Shown piece by piece: positions 763 through 19,278 of a DNA stretch of 22,455 nt. The stretch is from IMG/VR virus record IMGVR_UViG_3300047319_000050, positions 1-22,455 of that record, one strand, 5' to 3'. Within the stretch, counting starts at the first letter, position 1; every line of letters begins with the position of its first letter. The position numbers and the translations under genes were made by a program. The notes under the pieces are model-generated. The model was not told where the DNA came from, did not search any database, and worked only from the letters and a program-made list of their open reading frames with translations. Source of the DNA: a virus.

Positions 763-1821
763 TTATTCGGCGCTGTCCGACTCGGCGCCGTTCATCGCGG
801 CTTCCACGTCGGCGTCGCTGTTGGGCTTCTCGCATGAAACCACGCAGCGATAGGCGTCCTTACTCATTTCGTGTTGAACGCGTTTCACTAACCATTCTCC
901 GTCTGCTTCGTCGCCAAACTCCGACACGTCCAGAATGGATTCGGCCGTCAGCTTCGGCTCGCCGGGTATGTTGACTTCGAAGTTAAAGCCGCCCCGCGCC
1001 CGCCGCGCCAATTCGGCTTTGGCGGCAGCCAGCGCCATTGCTGGCGTGGCGAAATACTGCTTTAGGCGCTTCACCGGCTCGCCCGTTCCGGCCGTCACTT
1101 CGTGGCGCTTCGCGGCTCGCGTGGCGTGGTAGTACGCCACCACAGTACCAGCGGACTCGCGCGTGGATTCTTCCCAATGAAACGCGCTGCAATTGCCGGC
1201 CTTTACCGCGATCCTGGGCAGCGCCGCGCCGCTTGCCGTCGTTGCGTCGCCGCGCTTGGTGAAAATCAGCTTGCCGCCCGCTGGCTTTGCAATCGCGTCG
1301 TATTTCTTCGCGATGCGTAGCAGCAGGTTCATATCCGATTCTTCGGACTGGTTGATGTGCGGCAGCACCACGCTGGAAAGCGCGGGCGAAACTATCGCGG
1401 CCATACCATGTTCTTTCGCCATCTTTGCGACCATCGCGCCGATGGTCGTTCCCAGCTTCCACGAACGTGATTTGTGGGATTGAAAATCGACTTTCCCTTT
1501 TGGCGTTTGATCCCACGGCGCCGCGTGCGCCAGGATCGTAAGCTGGCGCGGCCAGCCTGTACGTTTCACGCCATCGCAGACAAAAATTCCCTTTTCCGTC
1601 ATTACGCCGTCGTATCCCAGTGACAGCGAAATTTCGGCGCCGGTCGGCGGCTTTTTGATGCGCTTCCCGTCCACGTGGTCGGCCAGCACAATTTCCAGCT
1701 TGTCGGAGTTGTCGCCCGTTTCGTCTGTCAGCGACAGCGACACGAACCGGTCAACGATAACGGCCGTTATGTCGGTATCGTTCGCCTTGATGGAAAACGC
1801 GGGCGCCAGATTCATGTCCAT
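763..1821 (-). CDS. D: P2 gpD-like tail/baseplate hub protein
   Basis: A 352-residue protein of the phage late control gene D family (P2 gpD is about 387 residues). In contractile tails this protein forms the central hub beneath the tube and carries the gpV spike; it resembles T4 gp27 and VgrG cores. The N-terminal half (AFSIKANDTDIT, then KLEIVLADH) gives the usual split beta-barrel start. The C-terminal part has the typical ATPAMALAAAKAEL stretch and a late GEWLVKRVQHEMS segment. It is the last gene of the minus-strand tail run, and its start overlaps the end of the X gene by 10 bases, as in P2-type T-U-X-D clusters. In P2 the next gene is ogr; here no such gene follows. Confidence 0.93.
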   Translation of the reverse strand: MDMNLAPAFSIKANDTDITAVIVDRFVSLSLTDETGDNSDKLEIVLADHVDGKRIKKPPTGAEISLSLGYDGVMTEKGIFVCDGVKRTGWPRQLTILAHAAPWDQTPKGKVDFQSHKSRSWKLGTTIGAMVAKMAKEHGMAAIVSPALSSVVLPHINQSEESDMNLLLRIAKKYDAIAKPAGGKLIFTKRGDATTASGAALPRIAVKAGNCSAFHWEESTRESAGTVVAYYHATRAAKRHEVTAGTGEPVKRLKQYFATPAMALAAAKAELARRARGGFNFEVNIPGEPKLTAESILDVSEFGDEADGEWLVKRVQHEMSKDAYRCVVSCEKPNSDADVEAAMNGAESDSAE

Positions 1822-2033
1822 AGCGAAACCCCGCCCGTGGCCGCCACTTCCGTTTTTACGTCGATCACGGGCAGCGCCACCAGCGTGCCAACGGGCAGCA
1901 CCGGACCCATATCAGCCAGGCCGTAATTAGCCGCCAGCACGGCCGCCAGAATCGACGGCGTGACAGAGCCGTATTGTTTCCAGGCGATAAAGTCCAGCGT
2001 GTCGCCAGCACGCGCGATGTATTGCGCCGTCAT
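1812..2033 (-). CDS. X: P2 gpX-like tail protein (LysM-like)
   Basis: A 73-residue protein beginning MTAQYIARAGDTLDFIAWKQ, the signature of the tail protein X family. This is a small LysM-like fold found next to D in P2- and Mu-like phages, and it is thought to sit at the hub/tube interface. The start overlaps the stop of U by 4 bases (ATGA) and its own end overlaps D by 10 bases, so the three are probably translated in a coupled way. The length matches the family. Confidence 0.92.
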   Translation of the reverse strand: MTAQYIARAGDTLDFIAWKQYGSVTPSILAAVLAANYGLADMGPVLPVGTLVALPVIDVKTEVAATGGVSLWT

Positions 2034-2977
2034 GTGAATTTCTTTATCAGGCTATTGGTTGCGCTTTGCGTCGTCGCCAGCAGGGTAGAAACCGACGTGG
2101 TGGCCTTCCCGGCTGTCGCCAGTGCCGTGGCAGCCGCAGTGGGCAGCGTGCCCGCCACGGTGCTGATATTGTCAATAATCCGCCCCGCCGAAGCGGCATG
2201 AATGCCCAGCGTGTCGATTTTGTCCAATATCGTTTTGGCGCCGCTCAATGCACCGCCGATGTTGCCAATACTCTGCACTTGCTGCGCAACGTCCTGCGCC
2301 GTGTTCCGAAGGTCTTTAACCACGTCCATGCCACGGTTCAGCGCGCCAATAGCGCTGTTCGCTTCCGTCAGCACGGGCGCGACGGAGATTTGCACCTGCG
2401 CAGCGGCGCTTTTCAGGCTGCCCAGCGTGCTGGCGGCCGTGCTTTGTACCGTCTTTACCATGCCAGCGAAACCGGACAGCGCGGCGGCCGTGGTGCCACC
2501 TGCGGCGCTGGTCGCGACGGCCGCCACGCTGCTGGCGCTGCCCAGGATGCTGCCGCCGTCGTCGGCCGCTTCGCCGTCGTCATAGATCGACAGCCGCAAC
2601 GTGAATTCCACCTTGCGCGGGCTGCCGTCCGTCTTGTGGCTGCTTTGCTTCTCGTCCAGCCGCTCGATAACCCAGCGCCCTTGATAGAAGCCCATGCTAT
2701 CCGTCAGGTCGTACGGCAGCCCGTCGTTAGCCATGGCGCGCAGTTCATCCAGGCTTTGAATGTCGCCCTTGTAATCCGGGTAGATCAGGCCGGGCAGTTC
2801 CAGAGAATCCTCGCCGCGCCCCGTGAATTGCTTCGCCGCAAGCTGGCCCATGCGTTCCTGCGCGGGCCACTTCCACTCTGTCGTTCGCGCCCACTCCTGG
2901 AAAACCAGGGTGTTGATAGAAAACTGGTAATCGCCCAGCACCATCATGCTGGGCATGTTTCCGCTATCGCTCGCCAT
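2030..2977 (-). CDS. U: gpU-like tail protein with long C-terminal extension
   Basis: A 315-residue protein. Residues about 10-134 match the P2 gpU tail family (MMVLGDYQFSINTLVFQEW, LPGLIYPDYKG, GRWVIERLDEKQS, VEFTLRLSIYDD). P2 gpU is about 159 residues. Here an Ala/Thr/Ser-rich extension of about 175 residues follows a DDGEAADDGG hinge at 133-142. It looks helical, with hydrophobic heptad-like stretches and almost no aromatic residues, rather like a tape measure or an apolipoprotein-type helix bundle. gpU-type proteins act at the distal tail end near the tape measure and hub. The gene begins 2 bases after the T stop and overlaps X by 4 bases. The core assignment is strong; the role of the extension is unknown. 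Confidence 0.88.
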   Translation of the reverse strand: MASDSGNMPSMMVLGDYQFSINTLVFQEWARTTEWKWPAQERMGQLAAKQFTGRGEDSLELPGLIYPDYKGDIQSLDELRAMANDGLPYDLTDSMGFYQGRWVIERLDEKQSSHKTDGSPRKVEFTLRLSIYDDGEAADDGGSILGSASSVAAVATSAAGGTTAAALSGFAGMVKTVQSTAASTLGSLKSAAAQVQISVAPVLTEANSAIGALNRGMDVVKDLRNTAQDVAQQVQSIGNIGGALSGAKTILDKIDTLGIHAASAGRIIDNISTVAGTLPTAAATALATAGKATTSVSTLLATTQSATNSLIKKFT

Positions 2978-14643: not shown

Positions 14644-14960
14644 AGCGAGGGTTCCAGGAACAGCAGCGCCATGCCGTCGCCAAGCTGGTGAGGCTTTTTG
14701 TGCGCCTCATAACTTTTCGACTCGATCACCACGGCATCGCCGCGCTTGACGGCGGCCACGTCGGAATACTTGCACGTGAAAATCGGGCGCGTGCTGTCCA
14801 TGTCCGTTTGCCCTGCGGCAATCGTCACCCCCGGTTCATCCAGGATGCCCAGCACGGGCGGCAAGACGAAGCCACTGGCCAGCGTAATGGTGGCCATACT
14901 GGCGAAATCGTCAGGGTCCAGAAACGCGTCCAGACCGTCCCAGGCGGGATGCGCTGGCAT
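14640..14960 (-). CDS. Head-tail joining protein, lambda gpFII-like
   Basis: A 106-residue protein at the lambda FII position (lambda FII is about 117). The sequence MPAHPAWDGLDAFLDPDDFA and the later DMDSTRPIFTCKYSDVAAVK, GDAVVIES and GDGMALLFLEPS fit the FII/attachment family, a small beta-barrel that forms the connector surface to which the tail docks. It overlaps its upstream neighbour by 1 base (TGATG) and Z by 4 bases. Confidence 0.8.
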   Translation of the reverse strand: MPAHPAWDGLDAFLDPDDFASMATITLASGFVLPPVLGILDEPGVTIAAGQTDMDSTRPIFTCKYSDVAAVKRGDAVVIESKSYEAHKKPHQLGDGMALLFLEPSL

Positions 14961-15154
14961 CAGGCTGCCTTGGCCTTCGCGGACGGCTTCGCGGCCCGCT
15001 GGTCGTCGTCAGACACGGCCATGCGGCGCGCTTTCAGACTCAGCGCGTCGGCGCGCAACAATTCCACGCGGTCGCCCGGCATAACCATTTCGCCGTCCAC
15101 AAAAAACGGCTTTACCACCCTAAGCACTTCGCCACGCTCGAAAGCCACTTTCAT
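14960..15154 (-). CDS. Small head protein at lambda FI position, unknown
   Basis: A 64-residue protein just after the capsid gene. It has a short beta-type start (FERGEVLRVVKPFFVDGEMV), then PGDRVELLRADALSLKARRM, and a Lys/Ala-rich tail (AAKPSAKAKAA). The VxxGDRVELxxxxA pattern resembles small SH3-like proteins that appear beside head-tail connector genes in many phages. Start choice is unclear. The ATG at 15154 has GAGG only 2 bases upstream, whereas GTG at 15148 has the same GAGG at a normal spacing of 8. The ATG-AAA-GTG-GCT-TTC codons contain a copy of the dispersed palindrome. Confidence 0.65.
   Translation of the reverse strand: MKVAFERGEVLRVVKPFFVDGEMVMPGDRVELLRADALSLKARRMAVSDDDQRAAKPSAKAKAA
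15140..15152. repeat. GAAAG-N3-CTTTC palindrome, copy 5
   Basis: GAAAG-CCA-CTTTC covering the start codon region of the 64-residue gene (the G of ATG begins the palindrome on the minus strand). Confidence 0.8.
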
Positions 15155-15244: not shown

Positions 15245-16552
15245 TTACGGTGCGGGCTTGCGGCCCAACGCGAACGATTCGACTCGGCGCAGCGCGAAAT
15301 CGACGTCCTGGAAAACCACGATACGAGTGCCGCCCGACTTCGACAGGGAACTGGTGTCCACCGTCAGGTCCAGGCCGCCCCACATGGCGATAATCAGGTC
15401 CGCGAAATTGCCGAAAAACACGTCACCGGCCGTAAGCTGGTTCGTCACTCGCGTCTGGTAGCCGTTCATGGTGTCGCCCTGTTCCCACAGGGTGGCGCCG
15501 GTCGGCGTGCCAGGGAATTTCTGCGTGGTCTTCGCGGCGCCCTTGGTTTGCGCGTCCACGATGTAGGCCATGTTTGCCACGGCCGCGTTTCGCGATGCAA
15601 TGGCCGTTTCCATGGCCACGGCTTCGACGTAAGACGGGTAAGTGGCCGCGAAATTCACGGCAGCAATGCCCGTGTAATTCGCGATGCCCTTCGGCTGGTG
15701 CGCCGAACCGGAACCGTAGTAACCCGCCAGGTCGATCGCCAGGCCAAGCGCTTCGGCAAGGTCGGCGCGCACCAGCGCTTCCACGTCCAGGCTCGATTGC
15801 ATCATCAAGCGGCGCGTAATGTCCGAATACGCTGCAACCGTCTTCGGGGAAAGCGCGATCTGGCCCAGGTCCATTTCGCCTTCGGGCGCGTCGTCGCCTT
15901 CGCCAATCCAGTAGCCTTGCGAACGCGCGGTTTTGCGCGGGATATCGACGTTTCCGACCAGGCCGCCAATCGGGCGACCCAATTGCATGATGGTCGTGGC
16001 GTTTTTCAGCAGGTCGATAAACGCGCTGGCCATCAGTTCCGTTGCGATGGATGCGCCACCCGTCGAACCGGCACCGCTTTGTCCGTTCTGGCCTGCGTTG
16101 AACGAACGCCCTTCGATCAGCGAGCGGCCCAGCACTTCAGGCGGAACCATAATGCCCTGCGCTTCCTTGCCCACTTTTTCTGCGGCAGCGCGGCCAGCTT
16201 CGATTTCGAAACCGGCTTCCTTCTGCGCCTTTTTGTCGGTCGGATTCGCCAGGGCGCGAATCGCCTTCATGAAACTGAACTTGCGCGCGTCCTCCGCCGA
16301 CAGGCCCGTGGACGCGTCCATGGTCTGCTCGGCAATCGGGCGCGAATGGCGCTTTTCGACGTGTTCCAGCAGCGCGGTGCGGAATTCGTCCATGCTCTTG
16401 CCGCTCGACACGAATTCACGTGCCAATTCGTCGGCGCCATACTGGCTGCCTGCTGCCACGATTTCCCGAACGCGGGCGCGCTCGGCATCGGCACCGGCGC
16501 GGCGCTGTGCGTCGGCGTCGATGTTTTGCGGTTCCAGGGTCGGGTCCGGCAT
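15245..16552 (-). CDS. Major capsid protein from internal start (nested)
   Basis: An alternative in-frame product of 435 residues, beginning MPDPTLEPQNIDADAQ at residue 205 of the fusion. Its ATG is preceded by AAGGA at a 9-base spacing, the best ribosome-binding site in the gene. It would contain only the delta region plus capsid domain, close to a free-standing HK97 capsid precursor. The arrangement recalls the lambda C/Nu3 overlap, where a scaffold starts inside the protease gene. The nested product is inferred from the signals, not proven. Confidence 0.65.
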   Translation of the reverse strand: MPDPTLEPQNIDADAQRRAGADAERARVREIVAAGSQYGADELAREFVSSGKSMDEFRTALLEHVEKRHSRPIAEQTMDASTGLSAEDARKFSFMKAIRALANPTDKKAQKEAGFEIEAGRAAAEKVGKEAQGIMVPPEVLGRSLIEGRSFNAGQNGQSGAGSTGGASIATELMASAFIDLLKNATTIMQLGRPIGGLVGNVDIPRKTARSQGYWIGEGDDAPEGEMDLGQIALSPKTVAAYSDITRRLMMQSSLDVEALVRADLAEALGLAIDLAGYYGSGSAHQPKGIANYTGIAAVNFAATYPSYVEAVAMETAIASRNAAVANMAYIVDAQTKGAAKTTQKFPGTPTGATLWEQGDTMNGYQTRVTNQLTAGDVFFGNFADLIIAMWGGLDLTVDTSSLSKSGGTRIVVFQDVDFALRRVESFALGRKPAP

Positions 16553-17164
16553 GTTTCGGTTTCCTTGAGTGGTTATCTTTGGTTCTTCACTGCCCTTTTC
16601 GGGCACGTTGGGATTTTCCGGCGTGACTGCGGCCGGTTCCACGTGGGGGTTTTCTGCTGAACGCCCTACGCCCACGGTGTCGTCGGCAGGAATGCTTACG
16701 AAAGAGATTTCAACCGGCAGCCAGGAAGTAACGGTGTACACGTCGCCGTCTTCGCGCATTTCCGTAAGCGTCGCCTCCTGGATGGCATACCCAACGGAAA
16801 CATGCTGGCGGATGCGGTCGATCACGTCCTGGAACACTTCGCTGGCGCGCTCGCCGCGCCCGAAGCGAACGACAGCCCGGCCGCGCTTGTCGGTGTCGAT
16901 GCGCGCCGACTCGATCACGCCCACCTGGTCGGTGCGGTCGTGGTCCATCAGCAGGGCGCCGCCGTTATTCAGGCGCGACAGGTCGGCCGCCCCTTCGGCG
17001 TGCGAAAGAATTTCGATTCCCCACCAGCGCGGCACTTCGATTTCCGAACTGAACGCCAGTTCGACGGTGCGCGCTTCCACGTCAATGGCGCCGACTTCAG
17101 CGGCACGCCAAAGCGTGCCCTTGCTGTTCATGTCGCGGATAGAAACCTGGGTTTTTGTCGTCAT
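15245..17164 (-). CDS. Fused HK97-type prohead protease and major capsid protein
   Basis: A 639-residue two-domain protein. Residues 1 to about 170 are an HK97-type prohead protease: GALLMDHDRTDQVGVIESAR with likely catalytic His75, RIRQHVSVGYAIQE with likely Ser123, and PVEISFVSIPADDTVGVGRS. Residues 171-204 are a disordered Pro/Glu linker with ENPHV and ENPNV. Residues 205 to about 370 look like a helical delta (scaffold) region. Residues 371-639 are the HK97 capsid fold: VGNVDIPRKTARSQGYWIGE, MDLGQIALSPKTVAAYSDIT, RRLMMQSSLDVEALVRADLA, GSAHQPKGIANY, and a late VFFGNFADLIIAMWGGLD. Separate genes encode these in HK97; here they are in one frame. The upstream ATG has no clear ribosome-binding site, whereas an in-frame ATG at 16552 has a good one. 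Confidence 0.93.
   Translation of the reverse strand: MTTKTQVSIRDMNSKGTLWRAAEVGAIDVEARTVELAFSSEIEVPRWWGIEILSHAEGAADLSRLNNGGALLMDHDRTDQVGVIESARIDTDKRGRAVVRFGRGERASEVFQDVIDRIRQHVSVGYAIQEATLTEMREDGDVYTVTSWLPVEISFVSIPADDTVGVGRSAENPHVEPAAVTPENPNVPEKGSEEPKITTQGNRNMPDPTLEPQNIDADAQRRAGADAERARVREIVAAGSQYGADELAREFVSSGKSMDEFRTALLEHVEKRHSRPIAEQTMDASTGLSAEDARKFSFMKAIRALANPTDKKAQKEAGFEIEAGRAAAEKVGKEAQGIMVPPEVLGRSLIEGRSFNAGQNGQSGAGSTGGASIATELMASAFIDLLKNATTIMQLGRPIGGLVGNVDIPRKTARSQGYWIGEGDDAPEGEMDLGQIALSPKTVAAYSDITRRLMMQSSLDVEALVRADLAEALGLAIDLAGYYGSGSAHQPKGIANYTGIAAVNFAATYPSYVEAVAMETAIASRNAAVANMAYIVDAQTKGAAKTTQKFPGTPTGATLWEQGDTMNGYQTRVTNQLTAGDVFFGNFADLIIAMWGGLDLTVDTSSLSKSGGTRIVVFQDVDFALRRVESFALGRKPAP
16562..16566 (-). 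promoter_or_regulatory. Internal ribosome-binding site in protease-capsid gene
   Basis: The minus strand reads AAGGA-AACCGAAAC-ATG, with the AGGA core at 16562-16565 and 9 bases to the ATG at 16552. The first start of the gene (17164) has only AACAGCTAACACACC before its ATG, which contains no purine-rich site. Capsid may thus be made mostly from this inner start. Confidence 0.65.
16604..16618 (-). repeat. Degenerate CCACGTGGGGGTTT-like copy
   Basis: CACGTTGGGATTTTC differs by two bases from the CACGTGGGGGTTTTC of the full copy 35 bases away. It encodes ENPNV in the same frame as ENPHV, so it may be an older tandem copy. Confidence 0.5.
16635..16656 (-). repeat. CCACGTGGGGGTTT repeat, copy 3
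   Basis: Matches the intergenic copies over GTTCCACGTGGGGGTTTT (16636-16653) and the terminase copy over 18 bases (16639-16656). It encodes ENPHVE in the linker between protease and capsid domains. Confidence 0.85.
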
Positions 17165-17170
17165 GGTGTG

Positions 17171-18748
17171 TTAGCTGTTCGGGTGCGAACCTTCGGCGGC
17201 CACGGGCGGCGGCACAAGCGCCTCGCCCATGGATGCGAGAATGTATTTTTCGTCGATGCCAGCGGCTTGCATGGCCTTAATGTCGGCGGCAATGTCCGCG
17301 AAAACTTCGTCAGGGTCGCCGCCCCATTCGCGGATGATTCGGCCCGCGCTGGTAAGCAGGTTGTTTTTCGATTCCACGGCTGCATTTACGTCGGCTGTCG
17401 GGTCGATCCATTGCCAGCGGCGCGGTTGCCAGCTAATCGAATCCTGCAATTCATCCAGAATTGCGGGCGAAAGCGGCTTTCCTTTAACCTTGATTCGGCC
17501 CTTCAGCAGCGAATAGCGCAGCCAAGCTTCCTGCACGGGCTGAACGGCGCTTTCTATCAGCCATTCCTGCAACTCTTTCCAGTGCTCGCGTTCGTCCAGC
17601 GTGCCTTGGCGGATGCTGGAAAAATTCACGCCTTCCAGGTCGCTGGCCAGGTTGTTGTATGACACGCCAAAGCCAGCGCTCGCGCCGCGCAGCAGCGTTT
17701 TGAAGACGGGCAGGAATTCGCCGCTCGGGTATTGCGGCAGCCATTCCTTCATTTCCGCGCCTTCGGGCAGCACGTTGAATGAACCGGGTTCCGCGTCGAA
17801 TTCCAAGCCGGGTTCGTCGCCTTCCTCGAATTCGGGCGACTCGCCTTCCTTCCACTGGATGAAACCCATTTTCGACGCGCCGACACGCGCATTTACGATG
17901 GCCGCATCCTCAAACGCGCCCATATTGCGCATGCGAAACAGCGCCGTGGCCATCCAGGGCAGGCCGCGTTTCTGGCCCACCAAGTCTTCCTGGAAGCCAT
18001 GCACCATTTCTTCTGCTGGCACGGTCACATAGCCCACGCCCGCATATTCATATTCGGCCTCGCCGTCGTCCACCGTCGAAAGGTGGTAATTCACGGGGCG
18101 CCCGAAACGGTTGAATTCGATGCCGTGGCGAATGAAATTCAGGCCGTTGTAGCGGTCCACGTTGTAGTCAATCGGCACCCGCAGCGGGTCGATTACCTGC
18201 ACCGAGAAGCCCCACGGGCCAGCGTCTTTGCCGGTCACAATGCGCAGGAAGAATTCGCCGTCCTGCGCCGCGCTTTTCACCAGCAAGCGCTGGATTGCGC
18301 GCCACGATTTCTTCCCCGCCACGTCGGCGGTGTTTTTGTGGCACCACTTTTCCCAAGCATCTTTCAGCGCGCGATTTACGTCCGCGTCGTGCGTGCCGTC
18401 CGCTTTTTTGAAAGCGGCTTTCATCAGGATGCCTTTCGGCCCAACGATGTTTTGCGCACACATGCGCAGGAAAGCCCGCGCATAGTCGTTATTCATCACC
18501 TGCTCGCGCGAGCGGGCGACAAGCGTCCGATAGTTGCGGGTAATGATCCAGTCAGCAGGCAGCGCGGTGGCCGTCCACGACTCGTTTAAACGATCAAAGC
18601 CCGCCGCATTGAACTGGAATGCCGAACGGATCGCGCGGCCCGCAACGCGAGCGGCGCGCGTGATGCGCGATTGCGGAACGTCGCGCGTGGTCGCCGCCTG
18701 CTTGGCGGGCATCAGCCCGCGCGAGCGGATGAAATCGAAAAGTGCCAT
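17171..18748 (-). CDS. Portal protein, lambda gpB type
   Basis: A 525-residue protein of the lambda-type portal family (lambda gpB is about 533). Signature parts are SREQVMNNDYARAFLRMCAQ, GKKSWRAIQRLLVKSAAQDG, FSVQVIDPLRVPID, VPAEEMVHGFQEDLVGQKRG and LLRGASAGFGVSYNNLASDL. It forms the dodecameric ring at one vertex for DNA passage and tail attachment. The C-terminus is acidic and disordered. The ATG at 18748 (MALFDFIRSRG) was chosen over an upstream ATG at 18868 because it forms a TGATG junction with the upstream gene's stop. Two dispersed palindromes lie inside its coding sequence (GKPLS and MKAAF). The order TerL, W-like, portal, protease is the lambda order. Confidence 0.94.
   Translation of the reverse strand: MALFDFIRSRGLMPAKQAATTRDVPQSRITRAARVAGRAIRSAFQFNAAGFDRLNESWTATALPADWIITRNYRTLVARSREQVMNNDYARAFLRMCAQNIVGPKGILMKAAFKKADGTHDADVNRALKDAWEKWCHKNTADVAGKKSWRAIQRLLVKSAAQDGEFFLRIVTGKDAGPWGFSVQVIDPLRVPIDYNVDRYNGLNFIRHGIEFNRFGRPVNYHLSTVDDGEAEYEYAGVGYVTVPAEEMVHGFQEDLVGQKRGLPWMATALFRMRNMGAFEDAAIVNARVGASKMGFIQWKEGESPEFEEGDEPGLEFDAEPGSFNVLPEGAEMKEWLPQYPSGEFLPVFKTLLRGASAGFGVSYNNLASDLEGVNFSSIRQGTLDEREHWKELQEWLIESAVQPVQEAWLRYSLLKGRIKVKGKPLSPAILDELQDSISWQPRRWQWIDPTADVNAAVESKNNLLTSAGRIIREWGGDPDEVFADIAADIKAMQAAGIDEKYILASMGEALVPPPVAAEGSHPNS
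17469..17481. repeat. GAAAG-N3-CTTTC palindrome, copy 6
   Basis: GAAAG-CGG-CTTTC inside the portal gene, coding for GKPLS on the minus strand, the same peptide as copy 4 in W. Confidence 0.75.
18410..18422. repeat. GAAAG-N3-CTTTC palindrome, copy 7
   Basis: GAAAG-CGG-CTTTC inside the portal gene, coding for MKAAF; symmetric over 15 bases with flanking T/A. Confidence 0.75.
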
Positions 18749-19278
18749 CAGAGGGAAACCCTTACCTGGGCGCCGAACAGGTTGCCGCGCTGGGCAGCCT
18801 TCAGGCGGCGCACTTCGGATTTGTAATACTTGCGAAGTGCCAGAAGGTCCGCGATAGGCGTGCGCCACAACTCGCGGTTATTGATCGTGTAGCGCATTTG
18901 ATCCTGTGACGCGCGCTTTTCCAGGACAGCTTCGATTGCGTCCAGTGCGCGCTGGGCGTGTACTCGCGTGTCCGTTCCGTCAGCCAGGGATGCGATATCC
19001 GGCTGGACCGTGACTTGCCCGGATTCGATTTCCAGCACGGTGCCGCTCGACACGGCGCGAACCGAAAACAGGTATTCGCCCGCCGTCCAGCCCGTCGTGG
19101 TGGCTGCGTCCACCAGTAAAAGATGGTCGGCGCCATCGGGCTGGCTTGCGAAATCAATCGCCTTTGGCCCGCGCAGCAGCACGTTAAGCGCCCATGTGGG
19201 CGCCTCGTACTCATTCAGCCGCACGGTGCGCGAAAACGTCACGCCCGCGCGGATGCTGTTAGGGAAATGGCCTTGCAT
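18748..19278 (-). CDS. Head-tail joining candidate at lambda W position
   Basis: A 176-residue protein between large terminase and portal, where lambda carries W. The C-terminal 60 residues (LASQ-type helix around VHAQRALDAIEAVLEKRASQ, YTINNRELWRTPIADLLALR, KSEVRRLKAAQRG) resemble the helix-beta-helix gpW architecture, including the Asp/Leu-rich second helix that ends in basic residues. The first about 110 residues are extra: a beta-rich domain (SIRAGVTFSRTVRLNEYEAP, LLVDAATTTGWTAGEYLFSV) of the immunoglobulin-like or carrier type. Lambda gpW is only about 68 residues. The start has GGTG 6 bases upstream. The gpW analogy rests on position and a general pattern, not on a certain match. Confidence 0.65.
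   Translation of the reverse strand: MQGHFPNSIRAGVTFSRTVRLNEYEAPTWALNVLLRGPKAIDFASQPDGADHLLLVDAATTTGWTAGEYLFSVRAVSSGTVLEIESGQVTVQPDIASLADGTDTRVHAQRALDAIEAVLEKRASQDQMRYTINNRELWRTPIADLLALRKYYKSEVRRLKAAQRGNLFGAQVRVSL

Follow-up and report, generated by a model that had tools for sequence, protein, structure and literature searches.

The window, a 22,455-base virus record of IMG/VR whose relatives are referred to here by L-numbers, contains a capsid gene in which a protease and a capsid protein are fused and in which a second start precedes the capsid part. Fusion, catalytic residues, open frame and a start signal of low structure are directly visible in the sequence. We consider it likely, with a probability of about 0.8, that this is a two-start capsid gene: a protease-capsid fusion and a shorter delta-capsid protein would both be made from it and co-assemble, and the protease dose would be set by the two starts. 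The original prediction that one gene could give rise to both the fusion and free delta-capsid by means of an internal start finds strong support in the comparison of sequences from four fusion groups.

Genes in which protease and capsid are fused occur commonly, and they raise a problem of stoichiometry: with a protease on every one of the several hundred shell subunits, dose and packing would differ greatly from what is known of HK97. This problem would be resolved by a conserved internal start, from which a simple, testable prediction follows on the way in which a virus controls the amount of an enzyme enclosed in its shell. Furthermore, the 600-700 aa "major capsid proteins" annotated in many databases may hide a main product of about 430-470 aa.

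The fusion gene of the window

Pfam and profile matches show that the minus-strand genes of the window follow the order of a tailed-phage head and tail. They code for a large terminase (gpA type), a lambda-family portal protein, the fusion, a head-tail attachment protein, a minor tail protein Z, a baseplate protein J and others. The capsid gene is separated from the FII-like attachment gene by a 64-aa ORF without Pfam match (14960-15154, minus strand). The features of the fusion gene are listed in Table 1.

Table 1. Positions of the fusion gene, its parts and its upstream neighbour in the window
Feature	Position	Strand	Basis or remark
Lambda-family portal protein gene	17171..18868	-	Profile matches; directly upstream of the fusion ORF
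Protease-linker-delta-capsid fusion ORF, 639 aa	15245..17164	-	Pfam S78 and Phage_capsid; PHROG_617
First ATG of the fusion	17162..17164	-	Without SD; 6 nt past the portal stop TAA 17171-17173
S78 protease domain, model strands 18-156	16697..17113	-	Pfam and AlphaFold2 model
Disordered linker, residues 158-214	16523..16693	-	pLDDT below 50
AAGGA Shine-Dalgarno (SD) motif of the internal start	16562..16566	-	9 nt upstream of ATG-205
Internal ATG (Met205)	16550..16552	-	SD and conservation in relatives
Predicted internal product, delta and capsid, 435 aa	15245..16552	-	Deduced product
Helical scaffold (delta) domain, residues about 217-346	16127..16516	-	AlphaFold2 model
Mature HK97-fold capsid from about residue 369	15248..16060	-	Match to R4C capsid chain 8gta

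Pfam assigns residues 69-164 of the 639-codon frame (17164-15245) to Peptidase_S78 and residues 370-634 to Phage_capsid, and the PHROG_617 profile covers residues 16-636 (E 2.7e-183, 612 bits). The AlphaFold2 model of the fusion (mean pLDDT 70.6) consists of a beta-rich protease (residues 18-156), a disordered region (158-214), helices (217-346), a second disordered region (348-380) and the capsid from residue 381. Its top PDB match is 8gta, the capsid of R4C, and HK97 (1ohg) was matched as well. The presence of a protease and an HK97-fold capsid in a single frame, as had been proposed, is confirmed by Pfam and, for the capsid, by both structure matches. The catalytic His75 is kept in 43 of the 44 clusters run for family A, the family of the window, and Ser123 in all 44.

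The 8gta chain from the R4C virion, perhaps trimmed a little in the deposited entry, begins at the equivalent of fusion residue 369; consequently, delta and protease are missing from that virion model. Because this chain starts downstream of both starts, N-terminal mass spectrometry of virions would be uninformative as to which of them was used.

The sequence ahead of the first ATG reads ...GAACAGCTAACACACC-ATG and holds no SD. Coupling to the stop codon of the portal gene probably assists initiation here. The internal start has the context CTCAAGGAAACCGAAAC-ATG; the ATG at 16552 and the AAGGA at 16562-16566, 9 bases ahead of it, are as originally described for a 435-residue delta-capsid protein starting at residue 205. 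In the model Met205 falls in the disordered linker, 12 residues ahead of the first delta helix.

The lack of a ribosome-binding site at the first ATG, a further part of the prediction, holds for the close clade only; the claim of a generally weak first start was dropped, since a good SD is present at this position in many of the distant members. In several of them it is stronger than the internal SD, so that the minority share predicted for the fusion need not apply generally. The SD at the start upstream of the protease is very strong in L050, L054 and L072, and given these strong upstream signals the ratio of fusion to capsid may differ between lineages.

Both products could be made with the fusion as the majority or in equal amount, the internal product serving some other need, for example at pentons or portal-proximal sites. 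The strong first-start SD of the distant members would suit this alternative, as would the gain that the first start of the window can draw from coupling to the portal stop. However, in 25 of 25 close relatives the initiation energy, a rough estimate that leaves this coupling out, favours the internal start by a mean of 4.4 kcal/mol. We regard the alternative as unlikely.

Conservation of the internal start

Relatives of the fusion are abundant, with 54 in phage records that cover at least 80% of the query and 73 loci in IMG/VR; as they were gathered with full-length fusion queries, unfused relatives are under-sampled in this pool. Family A relatives were clustered at 80% identity, and a cluster was counted if its linker contained an ATG preceded, at a suitable distance, by 4 or more nt matching the SD. 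As run, 40 of 44 clusters were counted; L098 belongs to family B, so that 39 of 43 remain for family A proper. The internal ATG with SD is conserved in related fusions. For the 44 clusters 11.8+-2.8 were expected when codon order was randomized and 22.6+-2.8 with synonymous codons. Of the remaining in-frame ATGs in these genes 22% have an SD match, and the recurrent Met codons q238, q269, q288 and q299, which serve as a built-in control, show mostly weak SD energies. With clustering at 50% identity the internal ATG with SD was found in 18 of 21 clusters.

The internal start of family A is conserved down to about 31% protein identity. Examples at 31-45% identity are CRP-811 (aaggagaacact-ATG), VP882 (agaggtgcagaa-ATG), R4C (cggaggacgca-ATG) and CRP-823 (aaaggagtgatccc-ATG). 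An SD is absent at the linker ATG in three cyanophage sequences, in L068 and in Xanthomonas phage L088. The cyanophage members L093, L094 and L095 have kept the linker ATG without SD, which perhaps reflects SD-independent initiation in their hosts.

Two further fusion families were also compared. Family B combines an S78 protease with a PF25209 capsid (NF045541; RcOceanus, Stenotrophomonas S1), and family C a ClpP-like protease with a PF25209 capsid (NF045540; Pseudomonas F10, MD8, coliphage mEp043). The internal ATG with SD is present in 41 of 42 clusters of family B (codon-order null 11.3+-2.8) and in 42 of 43 of family C (12.4+-2.8); these null counts take clusters as independent, and clustering at 50% identity, with 7 of 8 (B) and 12 of 12 (C), corrects for this only in part. 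The lone exception in family C, L175, has a GTG with AAGGAG instead of the ATG. Across the fusion families 18-22% of the other in-frame ATGs have an SD.

In a group of actinophages, Microbacterium phage Anseraureola and its relatives, the motif GAGAGGA...ATG stands at the junction of an S78 protease and a capsid that matches PF25209 only below its cut-off; the structure rank at this junction is 0.96-0.98. Absence of the inner signal from all relatives would have spoken against the prediction; the opposite was found, the signal being present in nearly all fusions examined. The same internal start is seen with two unrelated proteases. Probably, protease-capsid fusions of tailed phages follow a rule of two starts, whichever the protease (herpes-type S78 or ClpP-type) or the capsid family, and initiation rather than gene number would set the protease dose of the prohead.

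Selection on the start signal

We considered two reasons why the signal could be present without being used. First, only the full-length polyprotein might be made, with every subunit carrying a protease that is trimmed off after assembly; the internal ATG and SD would then be a by-product of the Glu/Lys/Arg-rich disordered linker. It is consistent with this that the frame is open in all clusters, and the R4C capsid chains begin after delta whichever the precursor. Such linkers also raise the chance of SD matches; the codon-order null, however, yields about 12 of 43 clusters and is far below the counts observed (39/43, 41/42 and 42/43), so that linker composition was rejected as the source of the SD. 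Likewise, a conserved peptide motif with the SD as by-product was rejected because codon phases and encoded peptides differ: the SD core occurs in all three phases, over 39 (A), 32 (B) and 26 (C) different tripeptides. The motif thus stays while phase and encoded residues vary.

In addition, the RNA structure is low at exactly this site. Among the positions of its gene, the region from -25 to +20 of the internal start has less structure than a median of 95-96% (families A, B and C; Wilcoxon p 9e-22), and it has less than 82% (A), 97% (B) and 92% (C) of the other linker positions. For the internal start of the window -6.7 kcal/mol was calculated, compared to a gene median of -12.2. The linkers themselves measure 36 to 99 residues, with 25-27 distinct lengths per family, and the frame is nevertheless never interrupted. 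Varying linkers with an open frame, an SD in all phases and low structure together indicate that the fusion and the nested capsid start are both maintained by selection. A gene expressed only at full length is accordingly very improbable.

Second, the internal start could be a functionless relic, left over from an ancestor in which the capsid had a gene of its own, before the stop codon upstream of it was lost. Capsid genes of unfused phages such as HK97 do start at the equivalent place, and so does that of L319, a capsid-only relative (1575-2855, minus strand; 426 aa) with its own SD. In a relic one would expect the signal to decay. It is instead still present at about 31% protein identity, despite insertions and deletions in the linker, and it is found in three families and in the actinophage group. 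This makes a relic the least probable of the explanations considered. As for L319, no protease gene is among its listed ORFs and its capsid gene adjoins an ORF for a possible small terminase; L319 is possibly a satellite or a degraded prophage.

Proposed mechanism and known systems

For the two-start reading we infer initiation, product ratio, co-assembly and order of cleavage as follows. Ribosomes ending the portal gene would re-initiate at the first ATG and produce the protease-linker-delta-capsid protein of 639 aa, whereas initiation at the internal AAGGA...ATG-205 would produce delta-capsid of 435 aa, the counterpart of gp5 in HK97. Through the delta-capsid part that they have in common both proteins could co-assemble, the fusion bringing the S78 protease inside the prohead in a ratio fixed by the two start sites. 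Cleavage near residue 369 by the protease, once the shell is complete, would then remove delta and the protease itself, so that the same mature capsid protein results from either product.

In HK97 the protease gp4 and the capsid protein gp5 are encoded by separate genes. Their domains are those of the window fusion, and the predicted internal product corresponds to gp5, but in the window a single open frame encodes both. In lambda C/Nu3 and Mu I/Z an in-frame internal start within the protease gene yields the downstream assembly part alone. The window gene resembles lambda C/Nu3 in its in-frame internal start with a conserved SD, its products being predicted from sequence; the nested product is scaffold only in lambda C/Nu3 and Mu I/Z, whereas in the window it would comprise scaffold and major capsid protein.

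The fusion architecture as such is already catalogued, as PHROG_617 and, for two other groups, under NCBIfam names. The window protein matches the PHROG_617 fusions of vB_EcoM-ep3, VP882, phiHAP-1 and R4C end to end and shares their traits, namely the full-length profile match, an S78 protease with catalytic His and Ser, an HK97-fold capsid and the gene order portal - fusion - head-tail. In the records examined one long "major capsid protein" is annotated and the internal start is unmarked. Layout and junction SD-ATG are also those of the NF045541 and NF045540 protease/major capsid fusions, which differ from the window fusion in their capsid (PF25209 instead of PF05065) and, for NF045540, in the ClpP-like protease; with 180 bits, over the N-terminal half only, the window fusion stays below the curated cut-off of NF045541 (525 bits).

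The internal start of protease-capsid fusions appears to be undescribed: no description was found in open-access full texts, from which the subscription literature may differ. Papers on R4C, B8b, V. campbellii prophages and R. capsulatus phages contain no N-terminal data on the precursors. The 685-aa peptidase U35 ORF of phage B8b matches family B; in proteomics of the virion 42.7% of it was covered, with 937 spectra (PMC4294664), which would be expected if it is mainly the capsid part that is left.

Comparison of L100, L104, L105 and L106 with L098 shows that families B and C have the same PF25209 capsid and unrelated proteases (S78 or ClpP-like). Homology between the two families begins near the internal start, which suggests an exchange of protease modules at this point. 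In fusions of marine roseophages and cyanophages about 170-290 extra residues are found ahead of the protease (L089:772-1500, L094:778-1500, L095:871-1500, L097:372-1500). Part of this extra region matches a Hva1_TUDOR domain in L089, and in L097 two CDS, each named major capsid protein, divide the region between them.
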